Of a stretch of DNA of 64,000 nucleotides, positions 2,955-55,690 are shown one piece after another (the stretch's first letter is position 1; each line of letters begins with the position of its first letter). The stretch spans positions 10,182,001-10,246,000 of the forward strand of contig JAWNZC010000351.1 of the NCBI GenBank assembly GCA_035771165.1, in the 5' to 3' direction. Made by a program: the position numbers and the translations under genes. This DNA is from Paragorgia papillata. Lineage: Eukaryota > Cnidaria > Anthozoa > Scleralcyonacea > Coralliidae. Below the pieces are notes generated by a model. That model was not told where the DNA came from, did no database searches, and saw only the letters and a program-made list of their open reading frames with translations.

Positions 2955-3835
2955 AGACCAAATGTTCTTATTTATAATAAAAAATCAGAGGGATCTTATT
3001 CTGGGAAGTGCTGAATATTTAGAAAATTCTGCCTGAGACACTTCATTAAAAGAGGACATTTATTTGAAGGGGGTGCTTAGTCGAATCATTATCATGGTAT
3101 AATTACTGTATAATTATTCCATAATTATAACTTCTTGAATTTGCTTCATTAAGCACAAATAATGGTTTTAAATCGAGGCTGGTCATGAAAGAAAACAGTA
3201 AATGTATTACAATCTCATTGTCAGCCTCAATTTGAACCCATTGTTTAGTGGGCACTAAAGCAAGATCAGGAAATGTCTATTAATATGTTTAGTATACGTA
3301 CTAAGTTTAAGATATTAATTACATGTACAAACCAGGTCCAATATCAGTAACAGTTTTCAGATAACAATCATCCTCACTCAGCCAGTATTACATTGGATTC
3401 GCTGGTGTCTCATGTCCAAAGTCTTAGGCAAGTTCTTGAAACTACCTAAAAAATGTGCCAGCTTCTTAAAATTAGTGGTGTTTAGCTTCAAATCTCATGC
3501 ACCACTGACATACAAGTGGCCCATACTGTACCTGCAACATTATAAGAAGGTTGTGCTTACTAGGTGAATCGTTAATAAAAAGTTAATACTGTATATAACT
3601 GAAATCTAATCAAAGTAGACTTCAAGTATCAGTAGTTCAAAACAGTTTAAACCTATCAGATGAGATATAATAATTATTCATATTTTTTTAGGATTGTTTC
3701 AGGTTATTTGTTTTTATTGGCAATGTTTCAGGCAGTCTTACTGCCCATCTTCAGGCCAAGATGTTTTGTTTGAAAATTATGAATAAAAAGTGATTAGGTA
3801 ATATGAATAGAGGATAATTAGGATGCTTTTCACCG
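2955..3835. other. Non-coding stretch, nothing recognised
   Basis: AT-rich DNA without a supported gene. No ORF with family features, tRNA-like box pair or long inverted repeat was found. Confidence 0.4.
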
Positions 3836-3945
3836 ATGCTGTCCCACATGTAGTTGTCACCAATGATCGCATGCGGATAAGTAATTGGTGAAAATCATGC
3901 ACTCAGACTGTTTCACTAGCTACACTTGTCTGTAGATTGAAATGT
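3836..3945 (+). repeat. Degenerate relative of the hammerhead repeat at 30.9-31.3 kb
   Basis: Matches the monomer of the tandem element at 30,878-31,318, from TTCACCGATGCTGTCCCACA through GTCTGTAGATTGAA, with scattered changes. The part holding CTGATGA, stem II and GAAA is missing, leaving ACTAGCTACACTTGTCTGTAG. The ribozyme is therefore lost while the flanking rod-like sequence remains. The pairing TTCACC with GGTGAA is perfect here though imperfect in the other copies, which argues for a structured RNA. AT-rich runs follow, as at the intact element. Confidence 0.7.
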
Positions 3946-4026
3946 GTAAAAACTATATAATTATAATATATATATATTAAAATAAGATTTTGGTATACTG
4001 ACTACCTTTGAATTTGTTTAGGATAA

Positions 4027-5944: not shown

Positions 5945-6140
5945 CCAAAAAGTGGTAATACCCAAGTGTTTTGCGCACTAATTTATAACCCTATATACTC
6001 CCCTAACCCTAACCCTAACCCTAACCCTAACCCTAACCCTAACCCTAACCCCAACCCTAACCATAGTACCACCGTCCAACTGCACCCAACCCTAATATTA
6101 TATGCTATATTGCTGTGCAAAACACTTGGGTATATATTAG
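5945..6140. repeat. Interstitial telomeric repeat between inverted flanks
   Basis: About ten tandem CCCTAA units (one degenerate) occupy 6,002-6,062. They are flanked by an inverted pair, TACCCAAGTGTTTTGCGCA at about 5,958 and TGTGCAAAACACTTGGGTA at about 6,114. The right flank runs on into the left arm of the 5.3-kb palindrome. TTAGGG-type telomere repeats are standard in metazoans. Here they are internal and part of, or trapped by, a mobile structure. Confidence 0.75.
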
Positions 6141-15820: not shown

Positions 15821-18800
15821 CTATAGTTTCATCTCAGTTTCAGTTGTTTTGATCTGATATACTTCTTGGTGAGTTGATTCATCATTTCGACAGACACAAC
15901 AGCAAAAGAACTCGACCATTCTCCAACCAAACGATTTTGTCATCAGTTTCTTGTCATTCCTACTTTTTGCGAAATTGTTTTTCTTTTCTTCTTTCTTTTC
16001 TTTCTTCTTACCACATTTTTTATTTATCTTCTGTTCTGTTTTATCTTTCTTATTTTTCTCCTCATTCTTTTTGGTTTTCTTCATCTTCTTTTCTTCTTTC
16101 CTGTCTTTGCTTCGAGGATAAGAAGTCAGTGTTTCGTGGCAAGGGACAACAGACTTTTCATCTATGGCAAGTAAATTAAATATAAGTGCTACATATGCAC
16201 GTTTTACTTTAGATCGGTATAGCAATAAATGTATACGATCATTTAAAATCATATGTTATTTGCTGTACAAAAGAAGCTCTTATACAAGGGTGGAAGACGC
16301 GGGGGGAGCTGCTCTCCAATAATTTAGTAACGCTATAAAAATCGTCTTAATATTTTTCTACGTATTCTAAAAATACACCAGAGCACAGTTTAAACTCGCT
16401 AAAGTTAAACGTACCTTGACGATTATGGAGAATTTCCAACTCGATACAATTTCCATTAATACCATTGATATTGGACGGTTTAGTCACATAAAGATCTTCT
16501 GTCAAATTTTCAGCATCAGACTCTTCCTCATTAGGTTGACCCCCGGCTTTGGCCAACCAATGAGCAAGATGCTCTTCTCCGCCACCACACTGAGGTAGAT
16601 CTGTGACTGTTTTCCACGATTTATCAGGAGTCTTCTTGTTGTCTAGTAGATCATGCCCTTGTAAATCATCGGATGCACCCGGCTGTACATGTACTGCAAT
16701 AGACGGTTCAGACGCAGGTAGACAATCCAGCGTGTTGCATAAATGCGGGAAAGTCCTTTCTTCAGAGGCTGAAACAGCGGTCTTTTTGGAAACCTTATGA
16801 AGAGGCTCATCTTTAAAGGTTAGAACACTGCCTTTGTTCCACCATCCGGGAAGAGACAATTCGTTGGTAAGTGGAAGTCCGGCACTCTTCCACACGTCAT
16901 CAAAGGTCTCTTCTTGGAGTGGTGAAACATTGTCAACGCTCTGCTTATTAAGATGGGTCCCTTCATCGGAGCCTGTTGTTCTGAGATATGTTTTAATTTC
17001 AAAACCCGGTTCATCATGATCAACATGGATACTCTTTAGTTCGACAGGACATTTGGTGTCGACAACAGTCTGACGTTCTGCGTTGGATACCGCAACAGGA
17101 CAATTGGTGTCAACAACTGGTTGAAGTTCTGCGTTGAATACCGCGACAGGACAATTGGTGTCAACAACAGGCTGGAGTTCTGCGTTGGATACCGCGACAG
17201 GACAATTGGTGTCAACAACAGGCTGGAGTTCTGCGTTGGATACCGCGATAGGACAATTGGTGTCAACAACAGTCTGAAGTTCTGCGTTGGTTTGTGCGAC
17301 AGGACAATTGGTGTCAACAACAGGCTGGAGTTCTGCGTTGGATATCGCGACAGGCCAATTTGTATCAACAACAGGCTGGAGTTCTGCGTTAGATACCGCG
17401 ACAGGGCAATTGGTGTCGACAACAGGCTGGAGTTCTGCGTTGGTTAACGCAACAGGACAATTGGTCTCCACTTCAGGCTGGAGTTCTGCGTTGGTTAACG
17501 CAACAGACCAATTGGTGTTCACTTCAGGCATGAGTTCTGCGTTGGATAACGCGACAGGACAATTGGTATCAACAACAGGCTGGAGTTCTGCGTTGGATAT
17601 CGCGACAGGCCAATTGGTGTCAACAACAGTCTGAAGTTCTTCGTTGGTTTGTGCGACAGGACAATTGGTGTCAACAACAGGCTGGAGTTCTGCGTTGGAA
17701 ATCGTGACAGGCCAATTTGTATCAACAACAGGCTGGAGTTCTGCGTTAGATACCGCGACAGGGCAATTGGTGTCAACAACAGGCTGAAGTTCTGCGTTGG
17801 ATACCGCAACAGGATAATTGGTGTCCACTTCAAGCTGGAGTTCTGCGTTGGGTGGCACGACAGGACAATTGGTGTCCAGTTCAGGCTGCAGTTCTGCGTT
17901 GGTTAACGCAACATGACAATTGGTGTCCACTTCAGGCTGGAGTTCTGTGTTGGTTAACGCAACAGACCAATTGGTGTTCACTTCAGGCATGAGTTCTGCG
18001 TTGGTTTGTGCGACAGGACAATTGGTGTCAACAACAGGCTGGAGTTCTGCGTTGGATATCGCGACAGGCCAATTTGTATCAACAACAGGCTGGAGTTCTG
18101 CGTTAGATACTGCGACAGGGCAATTGGTGTCAACAACAGGCTGAAGTTCTGCGTTGGATACCGCAACAGGACAATTGGTGTCCACTTCAGGCTGGAGTTC
18201 TGCGTTGGGTGGCACGACAGGACAATTGGTCTCCAATTCAGGCTGGAGTTCTGCGTTGGTTAACGCAACAGACCAATTGGTGTTCACTTCAGGCACGAGT
18301 TCTGCGTTGGATAACGCGACAGGACAATTGGTATCAACAACAGGCTGGAGTTCTGCGTTGGATATCGCGACAGGCCAATTGGTGTCAACAACAGGCTGGA
18401 GTTCTGCGTTGGCTATCGCGACAGGCCAATTTGTATCAACAACAGGCTGGAGTTCTGCGTTAGATACCGCGACAGGGCAATTGGTGTCAACAACAGGCTG
18501 AAGTTCTGCGTTGATTACCGCAACAGGACAATTGGTGTCCACTTCAGGCTGGAGTTCTGCGTTGGGTGGCACGACAGGACAATTGGTGTCCAGTTCAGGC
18601 TGGAGTTCTGCGTTGGTTAACGCAACATGACAATTGGTGTCCACTTCAGGCTGGAGTTCTGCGTTGGTTAACGCAACAGACCAGTTGGTGTTCACTTCAG
18701 GCATGAGTTCTGCGTTGGATAACGCGACAGGACAATTGGTGTCGACAACAGGCTGGAGTTTTGCGTTGGATATCGCGACAGGCCAATTTGTATCAACAAT

Positions 18801-20027
18801 AGGCTGGAGTTCTGCGTTAGATACCGCGACAGGGCAATTGGTGTCAACAACAGGCTGAAGTTCTGCGTTGGATACCGCAACAGGACAATTGGTGTCCACT
18901 TCAGGCTGGAGTTCTGCGTTGGGTGGCACGACAGGACAATTACTGTCCAGTTCAGGCTGGAGTTCTGCGTTGGTTAACGCAACATGACAATTGGTGTCCA
19001 CTTCAGGCTGGAGTTCTGCGTTGGTTAACGCAACAGGACAATTGGTGTCCACTTCAGTCTGGAGTTCTGCGTTGGTTAACGCAACAGGGCAATTGGTGTC
19101 CACTTCAGGCTGCAGTTCTGCGTTGGGTGGCACGACAGGACAATTGGTCTCCACTTCAGGCTGGAGTTCTGCGTTGGTTAACGCAACAGACCAATTGGTG
19201 TTCACTTCAGGCATGAGTTCTGCGTTGGATAACGCGACAGGACAATTCGTGTCAACAACTGGCTGAAGTTCTGCGTTGGTTGGCGCTACAGGACAATTGG
19301 TGTCAACAACAGTCTGAAGTTCTGCCGTGGTTATTGCCACAGGACAATTGGTGTCCACTTCAGGCTGGAGTTCTGCGTTGGATGTTGCAATAGGAGAATT
19401 GGTGTCTACTTCAGGCTGGAGATCTGGGTTGGTTAACGCGACAGGACAATTGGTGTCCACTTCAGGCAGGAGTTCTGCGTTGGATGTCGCAACAGGACAA
19501 TTGGTGTCCACTTCAGGCTGGAGTTCTGCGTTGGGTGGCACGACAGGACAATTGCTGTCCACTTCTGGCTGGAGTTTTGCGTGGGTTAACGCAACGGGAC
19601 AATTGGTGTCCACTTCAGACTGGAGTTCTGCGTTGGTTAACGCAACAGGCCAATTGGTGTACATGTCCACTAAAGGTTGGAGTTCTGCGTTGGGTGGCGC
19701 GACAGGACAATTGGTGTCCACTTCAGGCTGGAGTTCTACGTTGGATGTCGCAACAGGACAATTGGTGTCCACTTCAGGCTGGAGTTCCGCGCTGGTTGGC
19801 GCTACAGGACAATTAATGGTGTCTTCACCAGGATGAAGATCTTGATTTGTCAGTTTAATATGACTATTATTAACCACATCAGGTTGAAGACCGTCTTTTG
19901 TCACTTTGACAGGTCTATTGTTATACCTATTAGGTTGGAAATCCTGTTCGTTCAGCAAATAATCATCAAAGATATTGTTTCCCATCTCTATATAGTGTGA
20001 AAGAATAGTATTAATGACATGCTTCAT
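15821..20027 (-). CDS. Two-exon gene for a protein with about 57 repeats of 17 residues
   Basis: Exon 1 is 16,415-20,027 and exon 2 is 15,821-16,161. The donor reads CAAG|GTACGT and the acceptor ACTTGCCATAG|ATGAAAAG; the 253-bp intron keeps phase 1, and the joined CDS is 3,954 nt (1,317 residues). Residues 1-25 are unique. About 57 units follow, with consensus TNAELQPEVDTNCPVAL; the first units are degenerate, as at the edge of an array, and two units carry 1-2 extra residues. One position per unit is Cys in most units and Trp in about 13. A block of 6-10 units recurs, marked by AELMPEVNTNWSVAL. After the array come about 200 acidic unique residues (GWWNKG, HLAHWLAKAGGQ). Exon 2 adds a Lys/Glu-rich basic stretch and a Cys cluster FFCCCVCRND. 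No signal peptide or membrane span is evident and no known family is recognised. Function unknown. Alternative start: Met15 (MGNNIF). Confidence 0.75.
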
Positions 20028-28334: not shown

Positions 28335-28729
<395 letters not shown>

Positions 28730-28984: not shown

Positions 28985-30600
28985 AAAAAAACAGCAAAAA
29001 ATCCTGCTGACATCGCCAACCTTCTAAACCACTACTTCTATTCCGTTTTCGTGCCTCGTGTTAATTCTGATGAACATCTCCTTTTAGACCACGCTGAAAA
29101 CTCTTCAACTGTGGTTTCTGATATATCTCTAACAGATGCCGAGGTTTATGATACTCTTAGAACGCTTAATGAAAACAAAGCCACTGGAGCCGATAAGATT
29201 CTTGCAAAACTTCTGAAACACTGTGCTTTGTGCATTTGTCCATCTTTATGTGCACTTTTCAACAAAAGCTTGTCTGTGGGTAAAGTACCGTCCGAGTGGA
29301 AGCTATCCAACATCACCCCGATTTCGAAAGGAAGCAAAGCTGGCGAGGCCACCAACTACAGACCAATCTCACTCCTGTCACAGGTTTCTAAAGTGCTTGA
29401 GCGTTGCATCTTTAACAAGCTTATTGATCATGTGTCAAGCCAACTCCAATTTGGGTTTCTCAAGGGAAAGTCGACAACATCTCAACTACTACATGTTCTG
29501 CACGATTTCGGCAACATGCTAGACAACAGATGCCAAGTGGATGCTATTTACCTCGATTTTGCCAAAGCTTTCGACAAGGTCAGTCACAGCCTGCTGTTTA
29601 TGAAACTTCATCGATTTGGTATAAGAGGTAACCTTCTGCGGTGGTTTGAAGACTATCTTTCTGGGCGATACCAGAGAGTTACTGTACTTGGCGAGAGCTC
29701 TGATAAACTTCCTGTCTTGTCTGGAGTGCCTCAGGGATCAATCCTGGGACCTCTTCTTTTCCTAATTTATGTTAACGATCTCCCAGACTCCATCTCAAGT
29801 AGATCATCTTTGGCCATGTTTGCAGACGACACCAAGTGTTATCGCGCGGTCCAAACGATTAGGGATGGCGATGGTCTTCAGATTGACCTTGACAACATCG
29901 CGCGTTAAATGGTGCAGTGAATGGAAGATGAAGTTAAACAATTCCAAATGTGTGGTCCTAAATATCTCGAGAAACCTTCAGCCTATCACCATCCAATACA
30001 AGCTTCTTGAGACTTCCATCAAAAGTACAGGAAGTCAAAAAGACCTGGGAATTATTGTTGCCAGCGACCTCAAATGGAATCAGCAAGTGCAGGCAACTTC
30101 AGCTGAGGCCAACAAAATGTTGGGATTTGTCTGGAGATCAACGTTCGACATCCACGACCAACAAGTACGTAAAGCTCTCTACTTGGCCATAGTCCGAAGC
30201 ATATTAGCATACTGTAGCCAAGTGTGGGCACCTCATACGGTTAAGAACATCCAGATAATCGAACGTGTGCAAAAACGAGCTAAGAGTAACCATGAATTCA
30301 AATCCTTCAAATGGCCTTATGTTAGAAGAAATTAAATGTAGAACTGTAACTTTTCAAAACAGTTACTACTTGCGGGCACCTCGAGTCTGGAACACTTTAC
30401 CTAGAACCATCAGAGACATCTCAAGATCTCTAAAATCTTTCAAAAAGGAATTATTCAACCACTATCTAGAATTAACTAATCACGTTTACGATCCTGACAA
30501 TCCAAGAACATTCAAGTCCTTATGTGTTAAATGCCATTCATCTCGACCAATGTCTGGCTTATTGGCAAGATCGTGTTGCTAGGACATGACTTGACAGATA
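28985..30600 (+). pseudogene. 5'-truncated non-LTR retrotransposon, reverse transcriptase part
   Basis: Begins mid-ORF (KTAKNPADIANLLNHYF) and continues through NKATGADKI, NYRPISLLSQVSKVLE, YLDFAKAFDKVSH, SGVPQGSILGPLLFLIYVND and the catalytic MFADDTK. All core RT blocks are present and the active-site DD is intact. The frame then shifts once near 29,897 (LDNIAR/KWCSEWKMKLN) and again near 30,280 before the C-terminal domain (RAPRVWNTLPRTIRDI, then SFKKELFNHYL). It ends near 30,600, followed by a (TTA/TTG)n tract. A CR1/L2-like clade is likely but not certain. Non-functional because of truncation and two frameshifts. Confidence 0.85.

Positions 30601-30836: not shown

Positions 30837-30877
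<41 letters not shown>
30622..30877. repeat. (TTA/TTG)n and (TA)n microsatellites
   Basis: Mixed TTA, TTG and TTGTTG runs to 30,830, then (TA)n from 30,841 to 30,877. The first part is probably the LINE tail. The second directly precedes the hammerhead element. Confidence 0.9.
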
Positions 30878-30881
<4 letters not shown>

Positions 30882-30980
30882 ACTTCACGCTATCTGAATG
30901 TACTTCACCGATGCTGTCCCACATGCGGTTGTCACCGACGATCGCATGTGTATAAGTAATTGATGAAATTCATTCAGATT

Positions 30981-31038
30981 GTTCCAAGCTGCACTGATGA
31001 GCTGTTGTACAGCGAAACACCGTGTCTGTAGATTGAAC
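30981..31038 (+). ncRNA. Type I hammerhead ribozyme 1
   Basis: The core CTGATGA is at 30,994-31,000. Stem II GCTGTTGTACAGC closes as GCTGT/ACAGC with a TGT loop. GAAA is at 31,014. A minimal stem III (CACCGTGTC region, 3-4 bp) ends in GTC, with predicted cleavage after C31026. Stem I is open-ended: GTTCCAAGCTGCA pairs with TGTAGATTGAAC over about 11 positions with two mismatches. All invariant core bases are present. The very short stem III is typical of retroelement-borne hammerheads, which may act as dimers. Confidence 0.85.
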
Positions 31039-31257
31039 TATGTACGCTCCTTCACTTCGGTGTTGTTGAGCACTCTGTGAAGTTGCCATGGGTACCTATT
31101 AGCGATAACGCAACGCTCACTACCCTTGTGGAAGTTTGAGCACTCTGGGCCCATGCGCACTTCACGCTATCTGAATGTACTTCACCGATGCTGTCCCACA
31201 TGCGGTTGTCACCGACGATCGCATGTGTATAAGTAATTGACGAAATTCATTCAGATT

Positions 31258-31315
31258 GTTCCAAGCTGCACTGATGAGCTGTTGTACAGCGAAACACCGT
31301 GTCTGTAGATTGAAC
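31258..31315 (+). ncRNA. Type I hammerhead ribozyme 2
   Basis: Identical in sequence to ribozyme 1, exactly 277 bp downstream. CTGATGA at 31,271, GAAA at 31,291, predicted cleavage after C31303. Identity of both core and stems supports a recent tandem origin through a multimeric RNA. Confidence 0.85.
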
Positions 31316-31339
31316 TATATATATATATATATGTAATAT

Positions 31340-31440
31340 TTATAAACCGCGCAGGAGGGCTTTATCGGATATAAAAACGAGGCGATAGCCGAGTGTTTTA
31401 GAGCCGATAAAGCCCGTACTGCAAGGTTTTTAAATGGCTT
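31340..31440. mobile_element. Short hairpin repeat, CGCAGGAGGGCTTTATCGG
   Basis: GGGCTTTATCGG.TAT pairs with GAGCCGATAAAGCCC about 50 bp later, and ACCGCGCAGG faces a partly complementary end. A small MITE-like hairpin of about 90 bp. Confidence 0.5.
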
Positions 31441-35625: not shown

Positions 35626-35799
35626 CCCTCCGTGGCTCAGTGGTCAGAGCATTGCACTAGAATCGCAAGGTCGTGGGTTCAATTCCTGCCGGAAGGCCTG
35701 TGTAGTTGCATTTTTCGCAACTGGTCCCGGTTTGGTCTTAAAATGTATATATTCTACACTCGAATTTTCCTTCACCCAAAATCCTTAGAACATATATAT

Positions 35800-48522: not shown

Positions 48523-49440
48523 TTAAGGAGAGATCCGAGGAGGGCGACTATATTTAACATGCCGTTCATTTGTGTTAAAATTGAAACGAAATCGTTTGTC
48601 CATCGCAAAATAGACAAGAGCTGTGGCTGCTGTACTCGCGTAAGTGCCGATCTCGCATCCAAAATATATACAAGAATAAAACTCGATGTCGTCGAATGCG
48701 GTAAGTATGGCGGCCACGCCAAATGGAATCCAGCATAAGGAGTAAGTTAGAACCATGGCAAAAGCTTGCTTTTTTAAGCTAATTTCTTTTACAGTCTTTG
48801 CCATACCAAGAACTCGTTCCGCCTCTAGTCGATGTTTCTTGAGTTTGGTGTGAATTGCGGATAAGGACCGTCTGATCACTTGACACGAAACTGTTATGCA
48901 AACAGTTACAAGAACGATAGTGGCAAAAAATGAAATTACGGCCGACGAATTTCTGGTCTTCTTGTTGTGCGTTTGGCAGATGTAATAGCCTTGAGACTCT
49001 GCAACAAAGAAACCACACATCACAGCCGAAACTAGTGCTGACGACAAAAACCAGCCCAGTGCAATAACTATCACCGTTTTGCGGAAACTAAGACGTCGTT
49101 GCCCAGGGAACTTGACTACACTTTCGTAACGATCGTAACACACAACTGACATTGAGATTATGTTGGTAAATAGAGCCACAAAGTTAACTATGGTAAAGAA
49201 GATGCAATAGTTTTGAAACGGACGTACGACGTGTCCTCGGGCTAGTACTTCTCCCGGTAAAGATCCGAACAGAGAAAGATAATTCGAGATAATGATATTC
49301 AGTAACAGCACTTTATCGTTACGTTTTCCTTTCGCCAGTTTTCGCAACACGAAATAGAGAAACAACAAATTGCTGATCACTCCGACACCAAAGATAACCC
49401 AAGCCAAGTAAGCTAAAACGTTTGAGTGAGAGCACGACAT
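48523..49440 (-). CDS. Class A (rhodopsin-like) G-protein-coupled receptor, copy 1, 305 residues
   Basis: Seven hydrophobic segments: TM1 about 9-33 with GVISN, TM2 43-62, TM3 80-104 ending CYDRY (the DRY motif at 103-105), TM4 122-145, TM5 166-190, TM6 225-248 with CWIPFG, TM7 258-280. Cys79 and Cys155 are placed for the conserved TM3-ECL2 disulfide. Missing features: no Asp at the usual TM2 position, and TM7 has TALVYFAMDKRF instead of NPxxY. This is common in lineage-specific cnidarian receptors. Intronless, with a short N-terminus without signal peptide. Ligand unknown. About 97% identical to the copy at 54,299, which lies in an inverted duplication; the two genes are transcribed away from each other. 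Start chosen at the only upstream ATG shared by both copies. Confidence 0.85.
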   Translation of the reverse strand: MSCSHSNVLAYLAWVIFGVGVISNLLFLYFVLRKLAKGKRNDKVLLLNIIISNYLSLFGSLPGEVLARGHVVRPFQNYCIFFTIVNFVALFTNIISMSVVCYDRYESVVKFPGQRRLSFRKTVIVIALGWFLSSALVSAVMCGFFVAESQGYYICQTHNKKTRNSSAVISFFATIVLVTVCITVSCQVIRRSLSAIHTKLKKHRLEAERVLGMAKTVKEISLKKQAFAMVLTYSLCWIPFGVAAILTAFDDIEFYSCIYFGCEIGTYASTAATALVYFAMDKRFRFNFNTNERHVKYSRPPRISP

Positions 49441-53589: not shown

Positions 53590-55690
53590 AAGTAGTTAAA
53601 CTGTCTTTTAAGAGTTTTATACAACTGGCCCCTTATTGTATATAACAAGACGCCTGGGTCAGGCGTTCACTCGGGCTACTGGCAAAGTGCGGAGGTGCTT
53701 GGGTAAAATATACTGATTGTAGTGTTATTGCAGCAGTCACAAAATGGAAGCCTGAATCGAAGGCCTCTCTTCTCCGCAGAGGCTCTGTACCGCGCTAGAA
53801 AAGGTGGGAGTGCGCAGTGGAAGATCAGATCGAAGGCTGAATGTGGTGCATACGTCACACTTGTGAACATATTTATTACGATCAAGATAGTTGTCAGCTA
53901 CATCTGATCACTGTTTAACTACAAAGTCAGTCAGTCACTTTCAAAATCTACCTACAACGTGCAAGAACACCTTGATCAAGTAGTGGAAGTAAAAAGTACA
54001 AAAATGCAAAATCGTCACACCCCCCCCCCCCCCCCCCCCAATAAAAAAGGGGGAAAACTGAGCCGAAACCTAGACTCGGCCTACCACAGTAGCCCGAGTA
54101 ATAATCGCGGCACATCAGAGAGAATCGACGCATGGATGAACTAAGATGTTTAAAGCAATTATTGGCATTGAAGATGCACCTGACTATAGAAATCTATTAA
54201 TATCATGCATTAATAATGAATAAAAATATAATGAGGCCTTGTACAGCTTGTCTTTGCCTAATATGTGTGTTTAGTGATTCCAATGACTAACAACACAAAT
54301 GTCGTGCTCTCACTCAAACTTTTTAGCTTACTTGGCTTGGGTTATCTTTGGTGTCGGAGTGATCAGCAATTTGTTGTTTCTCTACTTCGTGTTGCGAAAA
54401 CTGGCGAAAGGAAAACGTAACGATAAAGTGCTGTTACTGAATATCATTATCTCGAATTATCTTTCTCTGTTCGGATCTTTACCGGGAGAAGTACTAGCCC
54501 GAGGACACGTCGTACGTCCGTTTCAAAACTATTGCATTATCTTTACTATAGTTAACTTTGTGGCTCTATTTACCAACATAATCTCAATGTCAGTTGTCTG
54601 TTACGATCGTTACGAAAGTGTAGTCAAGTTCCCTGGGCAACGACGTCTTAGTTTACGCAAAACGGTGACAATTATTGCACTGGGATGGTTTTTGTCGTCA
54701 GCACTAGTTTCGGCTGTGATGTGTGGTTTCTTTGTTGCAGAGTCTCAAGGCTATTACATCTGCCAAACGCACAACAAGAAGGCCAGAAGTTCGTCGGCCG
54801 TTATTTCATTTTTTGCCACTATCGTTCTCGTAACTCTTTGCATAACAGTTTCGTGTCTAGTGATCAGACGGTCCTTATCCGCAATTCACACCAAACTCAA
54901 GAAACATCGACTAGAGGCGGAACGAGTTCTTGGTATGGCAAAGACTGTAAAAGAAATTAGCTTAAAAAAACAAGCTTTTGCCATGGTTCTAACTTACTCC
55001 TTATGCTGGATTCCATTTGGCGTGGCCGCCATACTTACCGCATTCGACGTCATCGAGTTTTATTCTTGTATATATTTTGGATGCGAGATCGGCACTTACG
55101 CGAGTACAGCAGCCACAGCTCTGGTCTATTTTGCGATGGACAAACGATTTCGGTTCAATTTTAGCGCAAATGCATGAACGTCGTGTTAAATATAGTCGCC
55201 CTTCTAGGATTTCTCCTTAATATATCATATAGTTTTGCTCAAGGGGTAGATTTGAGCGAAGAAGACTAACCATCGTCAGCTGTGAAATGTGTATACGAGA
55301 TACATTATGGATGCCAGAAAGTACTGGGGTGGTGGTTCAGCGCTACCTTCTTATAGCTTTTTCTAGTGCTGGACAAATAGACAGCTTGTAGTATACCAGG
55401 CCTCTATAAGTGAAAAATGTTAAATGCTATCCAGTCATGTGGTTTTTATCGTTTATAGACATATAGGCGAAAGTAGAATATAGTCTAATTCACGCTTTCT
55501 ATAATTGCACTTTAAAAAACGCGTTTAAAAGCATGCAATTAAAGCAACTAAATATTAAAATCGCCAATATAGCTTCTTCTGCCCTTTTATCGATCTGAAG
55601 TCTCAGGCCTGGCAGGAATATTGATAGTTTTATTTATTCAATGGGATACACTGTATTTTATTACTATCAATTGCAGCCACCCATTCAGTC
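53590..55690. repeat. Right arm of inverted duplication (GPCR copy 2)
   Basis: Complement of parts of 47,970-51,480. The ends are near CACCCATTCAGTC (55,678) and the TTTATACAACTGGCC region (53,610). Confidence 0.85.
54299..55177 (+). CDS. Class A GPCR, copy 2, 292 residues, C-tail shortened
   Basis: Same seven-helix protein as copy 1, with about ten substitutions, mostly conservative and in loops. All motifs (GVISN, CYDRY, CWIPFG, the Cys pair) are kept, so function is plausible. Near 55,170 this copy reads AATGCATGAACG where copy 1 has AATGAACG. The 4-bp insertion shifts the frame and ends the protein at FSANA, replacing the last 16 residues (copy 1: NERHVKYSRPPRISP). The lost tail is still readable downstream in another frame (RRVKYSRPSRISP). 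The tail may affect trafficking or desensitisation; that is inference. Divergent orientation relative to copy 1. Confidence 0.85.
   Translation: MSCSHSNFLAYLAWVIFGVGVISNLLFLYFVLRKLAKGKRNDKVLLLNIIISNYLSLFGSLPGEVLARGHVVRPFQNYCIIFTIVNFVALFTNIISMSVVCYDRYESVVKFPGQRRLSLRKTVTIIALGWFLSSALVSAVMCGFFVAESQGYYICQTHNKKARSSSAVISFFATIVLVTLCITVSCLVIRRSLSAIHTKLKKHRLEAERVLGMAKTVKEISLKKQAFAMVLTYSLCWIPFGVAAILTAFDVIEFYSCIYFGCEIGTYASTAATALVYFAMDKRFRFNFSANA

Follow-up and report, generated by a model that had tools for sequence, protein, structure and literature searches.

The window, by which we mean the whole stretch of 64,000 nucleotides of Paragorgia papillata DNA analysed here, contains a tandem repeat with a unit of 277 nt that is bordered by (TA)n tracts and carries two type I hammerhead ribozymes (Table 1). 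Judged from its sequence, the repeat is almost certainly of the retrozyme type, a non-autonomous and non-coding metazoan non-LTR retrozyme. The first-pass annotation had reported two such hammerheads 277 bp apart, and inspection of the sequence together with a strict descriptor confirmed them at 30994-31026 and 31271-31303, a spacing of 277 nt. All core nucleotides are in place as had been claimed: CTGATGA is followed by the 5-bp stem II (GCTGT/ACAGC, with a 3-nt loop) and then by GAAA, stem III is minimal with 3 bp (ACA/TGT, loop CCG), and the cleavage triplet is GTC. Stem I is the open one and consists of 5 bp (CTGCA/TGTAG), an internal loop and 4 bp (GTTC/GAAC); the hammerhead has both this internal loop and the 3-nt loop II, loops 1 and 2 being linked by tertiary contacts in canonical hammerheads. 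The end of the interval annotated for the dimer, 30878..31318, runs into the TA tract by about 3 bases. The 5' end of the copy corresponds approximately to unit position 127-129 (ATGCGCAC). The arms 30876-31044 and 31153-31321 are identical at 167 of 169 positions, with mismatches at T30964/C31241 and at G31042/A31319, the latter in the TA flank, and arms of 169 bp follow from 1.58 units of the repeat.

Table 1. Features of the retrozyme copy and related sequences in the window.
Feature	Position	Strand	Remarks
Old retrozyme remnant	3829..3948	+	82-83% identity over longer piece; AT-rich 3' flank
(TA)n target tract, 5' side	30841..30877		seen in the sequence; TA run of 35
Retrozyme copy, 1.58 units of 277 nt	30878..31315	+	3' end at unit position 12
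First type I hammerhead	30981..31038	+	stem I GTTC..CTGCA / TGTAG..GAAC; core from 30994
Predicted cleavage site 1	31026..31027	+	after C31026; GTC 31024-31026; predicted from hammerhead rules
Predicted 277-nt unit between the two cleavages	31027..31303	+	without long ORF
Second type I hammerhead	31258..31315	+	stem I end = element 3' end
Predicted cleavage site 2	31303..31304	+	after C31303; GTC 31301-31303
(TA)n target tract, 3' side	31316..31332		junction GAAC followed by TATATATATA, within GTCTGTAGATTGAACTATATATATA
Flank of the repeat to which the TA tract belonged	31333..31415		inverted repeat 31357-31376 / 31396-31415

Searching both strands of the 64-kb window with the strict descriptor returned the sites 30994 and 31271 only. 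The same descriptor matched nothing in 300 dinucleotide shuffles, and a chance motif was therefore rejected; a looser descriptor gave matches in 2 of 100 shuffles. The covariance-model check proposed in the first-pass annotation turned out differently, since Rfam at the gathering score called neither window hammerhead and below threshold found the second copy only, as a weak Hammerhead_HH9 (18.6 bits, gathering 52, E 0.14). The descriptor search detected no minus-strand hammerhead in the window, other ribozyme classes being covered by Rfam only, and a scan of viral contigs for the hammerhead gave 0 matches.

The GC content of the unit is 48%. Around the 277-nt circle the longest ATG frame has 49 codons, on the antisense strand, and the ORF scan round the circle found no reverse transcriptase (RT) or GIY-YIG ORF. 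The circle is predicted to fold at -92.2 kcal/mol, whereas shuffles average -69.5 (z -4.9; 0 of 200 shuffles as low), with 69% of the nucleotides paired. Within this predicted circle the active hammerhead fold costs about 7 kcal/mol, and the minimum-energy fold of the isolated 58-nt hammerhead differs from the active one; both count against the explanation that we prefer below.

The 3' flank of the window copy (GTAATATTTATAAACCGCGC) recurs beside a plain TA tract in one region (L030) and beside an insertion of PLE-B, a Penelope-like element (PLE) group described below, in another (L116). The same flank thus adjoins the tract with different or no insertions, so the TA target predates the element. 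Insertion into (TA)n hides any target-site duplication, which in metazoan retrozymes exceeds 4 bp when there is one. The old remnant in the window lacks 27 nt of the hammerhead core and retains both stem I strands.

Several other features were recorded in the window. A LINE-type reverse transcriptase (RVT_1) lies at 29051-30335, just upstream of the retrozyme, with (TTA/TTG)n microsatellites between it and the TA tract of the retrozyme. The 1226-aa ORF at 16347-20027 (-) is largely a 51-bp repeat with about 54 copies (NCPVALTNAELQPEVDT-like units). Receptor genes at 48523-49440 (-), which matches the rhodopsin family, and 54299-55177 (+) form an inverted pair within an inverted duplication that is 1.8 kb long and about 90% identical. 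Matches to tRNA families occur at 28392-28458 (-) and 35626-35697 (+); the former is partial, has a (TTA)n tract close by and may be the head of a SINE. A telomere-like interstitial repeat, (CCCTAA)10, is located at 6001-6062.

Genomic copies and their insertion ends

The genome searched comprises 618 Mb in 473 contigs, the window being part of contig C351. The hammerhead pattern CTGATGAGN{6,16}CGAAACN{3,7}GTC occurs 5,979 times genome-wide (reversed control 0), and the first 100 listed places belong mostly to the retrozyme family of the window. A DNA search with the element gave at least 80 matches of 96-100% identity among the best 40 of 303 candidates scored. Further tandem copies, on whose existence the first-pass annotation had made its reading depend, are present in large numbers. 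We examined 160 complete units, 123 of them distinct; 122 of the 160 measure 277 nt. Identity to the unit of the window has a median of 97%. The mean minor-allele frequency is 1.0% in the hammerhead core and 2.4% in the rest of the unit (one-sided p 0.027, with equal medians), which indicates a modest conservation of the hammerhead across copies. Some copies have changes in the core, A9 being altered in 9 of the 123 distinct units. Outside TA tracts we also observed three orphan retrozyme pieces of 90 bp (L087, L088 and L089; C1:4855510-4873770) whose hammerhead core is intact; they are about 9 kb apart, have identical flanks and have lost the distal stem I partner.

Insertion ends were mapped in 71 segments with both ends inside the retrieved regions. 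These came from L009-L043, L044, L048, L049, L051, L052, L057, L074-L093 minus L092 (omitted as belonging to another family) and two stretches of the window; L076 and L081 contribute no row, and the set excludes 5 segments truncated at the edge of a region as well as all matches no longer than 60 nt. Regions L009-L043 surround the top-scoring DNA matches and are biased towards long, similar copies. The others (L044, L048, L049, L051, L052, L057 and L074-L093) were taken in contig order from the pattern list, L074-L093 having lengths of about 630-940 bases and a bias towards short copies.

A single 3' end, at unit position 12 (GTGTCTGTAGATTGAAC) and followed by (TA)n, was found in 62 of the 71 segments (aligner 3' positions of 11-18 include TA letters shared by chance). 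This standard end coincides with the end of stem I and is 12 nt downstream of the cleavage site. A TA run of at least 8 follows it in 61 of 62 segments and is present on both sides in 49, while only 0.49% of window bases fall within such runs. Against our preferred explanation count the 13 of 62 standard segments whose 5' side has no TA run of 8 and the nine of 71 that lack the standard 3' end, namely five interrupted or rearranged segments (L017, L023, L043 and two in L057), the three orphans and the window remnant. At the genome scale, GTCTGTAGATTGAAC occurs 6,244 times; in 2,749 cases it is followed by TATATATATA (the end junction, GTCTGTAGATTGAAC+(TA)5) and in 2,314 by TATGTACGC, as inside arrays, the reversed controls of the three counts being 1, 0 and 0. 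The remaining 1,181 occurrences are diverged or different.

The 5' ends are variable, with 43 different unit positions among the 62 standard segments, and 69% of them fall between unit positions 62 and 135, where 27% would be expected if they were uniform. At 38 clean 5' junctions the TA microhomology averages 1.55 nt against 0.68 expected (0 of 20,000 resamples as high), although 8 of these junctions share position 82 and hence are not all separate evidence. The standard segments span 0.25 to 11.7 units, longer arrays running beyond their regions, and 44 of the 62 are shorter than 2 units, in a sample whose small regions favour short copies. Units of the same array differ at 1.6 of 137 positions and units of different arrays at 4.5 (41 arrays; none of 2,000 permutations gave so low a value), which is what copying of each array from one template would produce; local homogenisation could add to this. 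Five of the 41 arrays differ internally at 4 or more of the 137 positions, equal to the between-array level, which counts against the preferred explanation. Sixteen adjacent retrozyme pairs comprised four '-+', three '+-' and nine in the same orientation.

The microsatellite flanks noted in the first-pass annotation are (TA)n, and beyond being a matter of layout they are the insertion target. Because the 3' end lies 12 nt past the cut, the template was continuous across the cleavage site, and the source RNA was a religated circle or an uncleaved multimer and not a cleaved linear monomer. The pattern is that of target-primed reverse transcription from one internal site of such a template; the simplest template would be a circle round which copying ran for 0.3 to many laps.

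A second retrozyme family was found as one array at C3:894 kb with units of 188/182 nt (L092, L121 and L122). Its hammerhead has stem III AC/GT, and a stretch of 101 nt around the ribozyme is related to the first family (79% identity). This array shares the 3' terminus, stopping between TGCAGATTGAA and TATATATATATA with a TA tract on the 3' side. When 11 hammerhead variants from both families are compared, the stems are paired in 94.7% of the cells, against 14-50% in slid controls. Changes on both sides were detected at 2 of 17 stem pairs, where column shuffles give 1.7, and this covariation is weak evidence for the hammerhead pairing.

Penelope-like elements in the same targets

PLEs have been proposed as the movers of retrozymes because both have type I hammerheads and a tandem layout and the two co-occur, according to the accessible text of PMC7229834 and PMC7761336, the latter of which describes retrozymes as having no conserved motif that helps to deduce the autonomous partner. 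A lizard PLE cleaves AT-rich DNA and begins its cDNA within the RNA, past the hammerhead cut, at a point that has no homology to the target (PMC11167929). In the accessible part of PMC3846280, Penelope elements are said to prefer simple AT-rich targets, trans-mobilisation of host genes by them is reported, and 5' microhomology is given as known for rotifer Penelope and LINEs.

A profile search of the genome with PF01541 (GIY-YIG) gave at least 104 matches among 150 of 540 candidates scored, and seven loci were examined. Group A (L095 and L097-L099) has GIY-YIG and, before the 3' end, a minimal hammerhead (CTGATGATGWCGTAG...ACGACGAAAGCTC); its RT scores above the Pfam cut-off in L098 and below it in L099. 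Group B, or PLE-B, comprises L094, L096 and L100, with GIY-YIG in L094. The PLE-B RT fragment resembles the group-A RT (BLASTP, 36% over 66 aa) and had no match to PF00078, so that its assignment as RT follows from the BLASTP match. By manual reading, L096 and L100 contain a minimal hammerhead-like motif, GCAC-CTGAAGA-GCTT-ATTA-AAGT-GAA-AAC-GTT-T-GTGC, to which L094 has no match.

The 3' region of PLE-B has at least 50 genomic matches among 40 of 52 candidates scored, and it shows two discrete 3' ends, after CACAACAACTTT and after ACCATTTTG, 44 nt apart in L096. These two ends can be compared with the 'tail' of 30-40 bp that Penelope elements may or may not carry (PMC11167929). From the 50 matches we chose 20 3' flanks in which the match reaches one of the two ends. 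A TA run of at least 8 begins within about the first 40 nt in 19 of these 20 flanks, and the other has TATAT; 16 of the 20 passed a stricter first TA test. In four of the 20 (L114, L115, L117 and L119) a retrozyme lies in the same TA tract as PLE-B. The 24 TA runs of the window scale to about 230,000 genome-wide, of which about 1% would hold a retrozyme, and chance sharing of a tract looks small. The co-location shows a shared target and not a direct link, and both elements may favour long tracts. On this sequence evidence PLE-B is a candidate autonomous partner of the retrozyme. The frames are broken in the PLE-B copies examined, which counts against this part of our explanation, and no clear sequence likeness was seen between the 3' ends of the retrozyme and PLE-B.

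The comparison of insertion targets covered retrozymes, PLE-B and PLE group A. Group A was rejected as partner, since its copies that end within the regions examined (both in L097, and L098, L129 and L130) do not abut TA tracts; this contrast is small, as 6 of 8 flanks sampled from 58 matches showed the element continuing. Head-to-head pairing was also considered as a signature of retrozyme and PLE. The PLE-B matches listed contain seven '-' then '+' pairs less than 10 bp apart or overlapping and none in reverse order, whereas neighbouring retrozyme segments occur in all orientations, and the idea was dropped. Finally, L098 had appeared to be a PLE bearing the retrozyme 3' end and is instead a PLE fragment nested inside a retrozyme copy: a truncated group-A PLE occupies L098:507-2378 and has a copy of unit positions 217-229 on either side, which may be a 13-bp target duplication.

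Proposed cycle and competing explanations

Together these data lead us to propose the following cycle. A transcript of a tandem copy would cut itself at each hammerhead, and the resulting 277-nt RNA would be closed to a circle by a host ligase. A Penelope-like enzyme would nick a (TA)n tract, and reverse transcription would always begin at the same place inside the RNA, just after stem I, between UUGAAC and UAUG. The cDNA synthesis would go round the template for 0.3 to many laps, and the other cDNA end would join the TA tract through 1-3 nt of microhomology. The account as a whole, with a retrozyme, a circular template and a PLE enzyme, seems probable to us; cleavage, circularity and the source of the enzyme are the parts of it that we infer. 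The narrower proposition that a Penelope-like enzyme copies ribozyme-made 277-nt circles in trans, over multiple laps, from a fixed start 12 nt past the cut and aimed at (TA)n, we regard as evenly balanced.

The template could instead be an uncleaved linear multimeric transcript on which the same TA-directed enzyme initiates at any unit, the hammerhead and the circle being dispensable. Such an RNA would likewise cross the cleavage site, and the lizard PLE inserts unprocessed RNA in vitro, its hammerhead mutants inserting normally (PMC11167929). Four sisters of 1.6 or 2.6 units (L009, L010, L011 and L013) begin within 3 nt of the 5' end of the window copy and have an uncommon base in common with it; a shared source is likely for these five and may have been linear. 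The commonest 5' end, position 82, tells another story: seven copies that have it differ from each other by 3.9%, compared with 2.3% in random sets, and as they are no more alike than random sets this end arose repeatedly, which rejects a single linear source for the seven. The lower mean variability of the hammerhead region, with its equal medians, also speaks against a dispensable ribozyme, and we consider the linear template unlikely. The enzyme, on the other hand, might come from a LINE. A fixed 3' end combined with variable 5' ends is general among target-primed elements, and the window has a LINE-type RT immediately upstream of the retrozyme. Hammerhead repeats of Nematostella have 15-bp LINE-type target duplications in the accessible text of PMC4918200, which differs from the (TA)n insertions seen here, where any duplication would be hidden. 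PLE-B, however, enters the same TA tracts as the retrozyme, the upstream LINE is followed by (TTA/TTG)n ahead of the TA tract, and both internal initiation (PMC11167929) and, in what is accessible of PMC3846280, a preference for simple AT-rich targets are reported for Penelope elements. A LINE as the mover is accordingly, in our estimation, a doubtful choice.

Two further explanations appear far less probable. The arrays might be a satellite that was made and dispersed through unequal exchange and recombination between TA tracts, with the ribozyme incidental, as many arrays are homogeneous and some are long (28 unit lengths in L041, which is cut by the region). This is disfavoured because one 3' end with so many different 5' positions is unlike recombination; the predominance of segments below 2 units, in a sample favouring short copies, points the same way, and the satellite is very improbable. 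We give as little credence to the copies being integrated forms of a viroid-like RNA replicon that multiplies from RNA to RNA. The fold predicted for the 277-nt circle is far below shuffles as in viroid-like RNAs, but the window has no minus-strand hammerhead, and with thousands of genomic copies DNA templates suffice. The proposed cycle, with a circle copied by a Penelope-like enzyme, thus remains our preferred explanation.

Relation to known elements and significance

The layout recognised in the first-pass annotation (type I hammerheads, tandem units, no long ORF and GC below 50%) agrees with that of published animal retrozymes, which the accessible text of PMC7229834 describes as tandem units of 150-450 bp, from dimers to long multimers; elements of this class are expressed as linear and circular RNA. 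The non-LTR retrozymes of Acropora millepora, Mytilus and axolotl in that text are also alike in having thousands of copies and a predicted highly paired circle. The units measure 277 (and 188) nt here and 220-245 in A. millepora, and the present family differs from those described there in having its target, fixed 3' end and candidate autonomous partner defined. The PLEs with minimal hammerheads, such as Poseidon of Anolis (PMC11167929), share the AT-rich target, the internal RT start, ends downstream of the hammerhead cut and tandem copies. Unlike them, the retrozyme lacks RT and endonuclease and its hammerhead has a stem III; its 3' end is 12 nt past the cut, compared with about 69 and 113 nt in PLE-B by our own count and about 85-92 nt in Anolis from the coordinates in PMC11167929. 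Plant LTR retrozymes, as far as the accessible parts of PMC4918200 and PMC7761336 describe them, are likewise non-coding retroelements bounded by hammerheads and copied via circular RNA, with type III hammerheads, a size of 600-1000 bp, LTRs with PBS and PPT and 4-bp target duplications. This class was rejected for the present element, in which stem I and not stem III is the open one.

The kind of element is therefore known. The family is apparently new, as the first-pass annotation had thought possible, though it may have been listed earlier in the supplements of PMC7229834; the novelty lies in the junction data and in the TA target held in common with PLE-B, and the mobilisation model is new and testable. 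In the titles and opening abstracts of accessible papers we found no report of the TA target or of the pairing described here.

The thousands of young copies provide, in one genome, ends exact to the base, the target and a PLE family that shares this target. A candidate PLE family would answer a point left open for animal retrozymes in the accessible text of PMC7229834 and PMC7761336. If the model is true, it would identify the autonomous partner of animal retrozymes and the chemistry of their insertion, and the hammerhead would have two roles, making the circle and, via the end of stem I, placing the start of the cDNA. Which enzyme, template and start site are used can thus be tested biochemically, as the protein family, the RNA and the DNA target are all defined.
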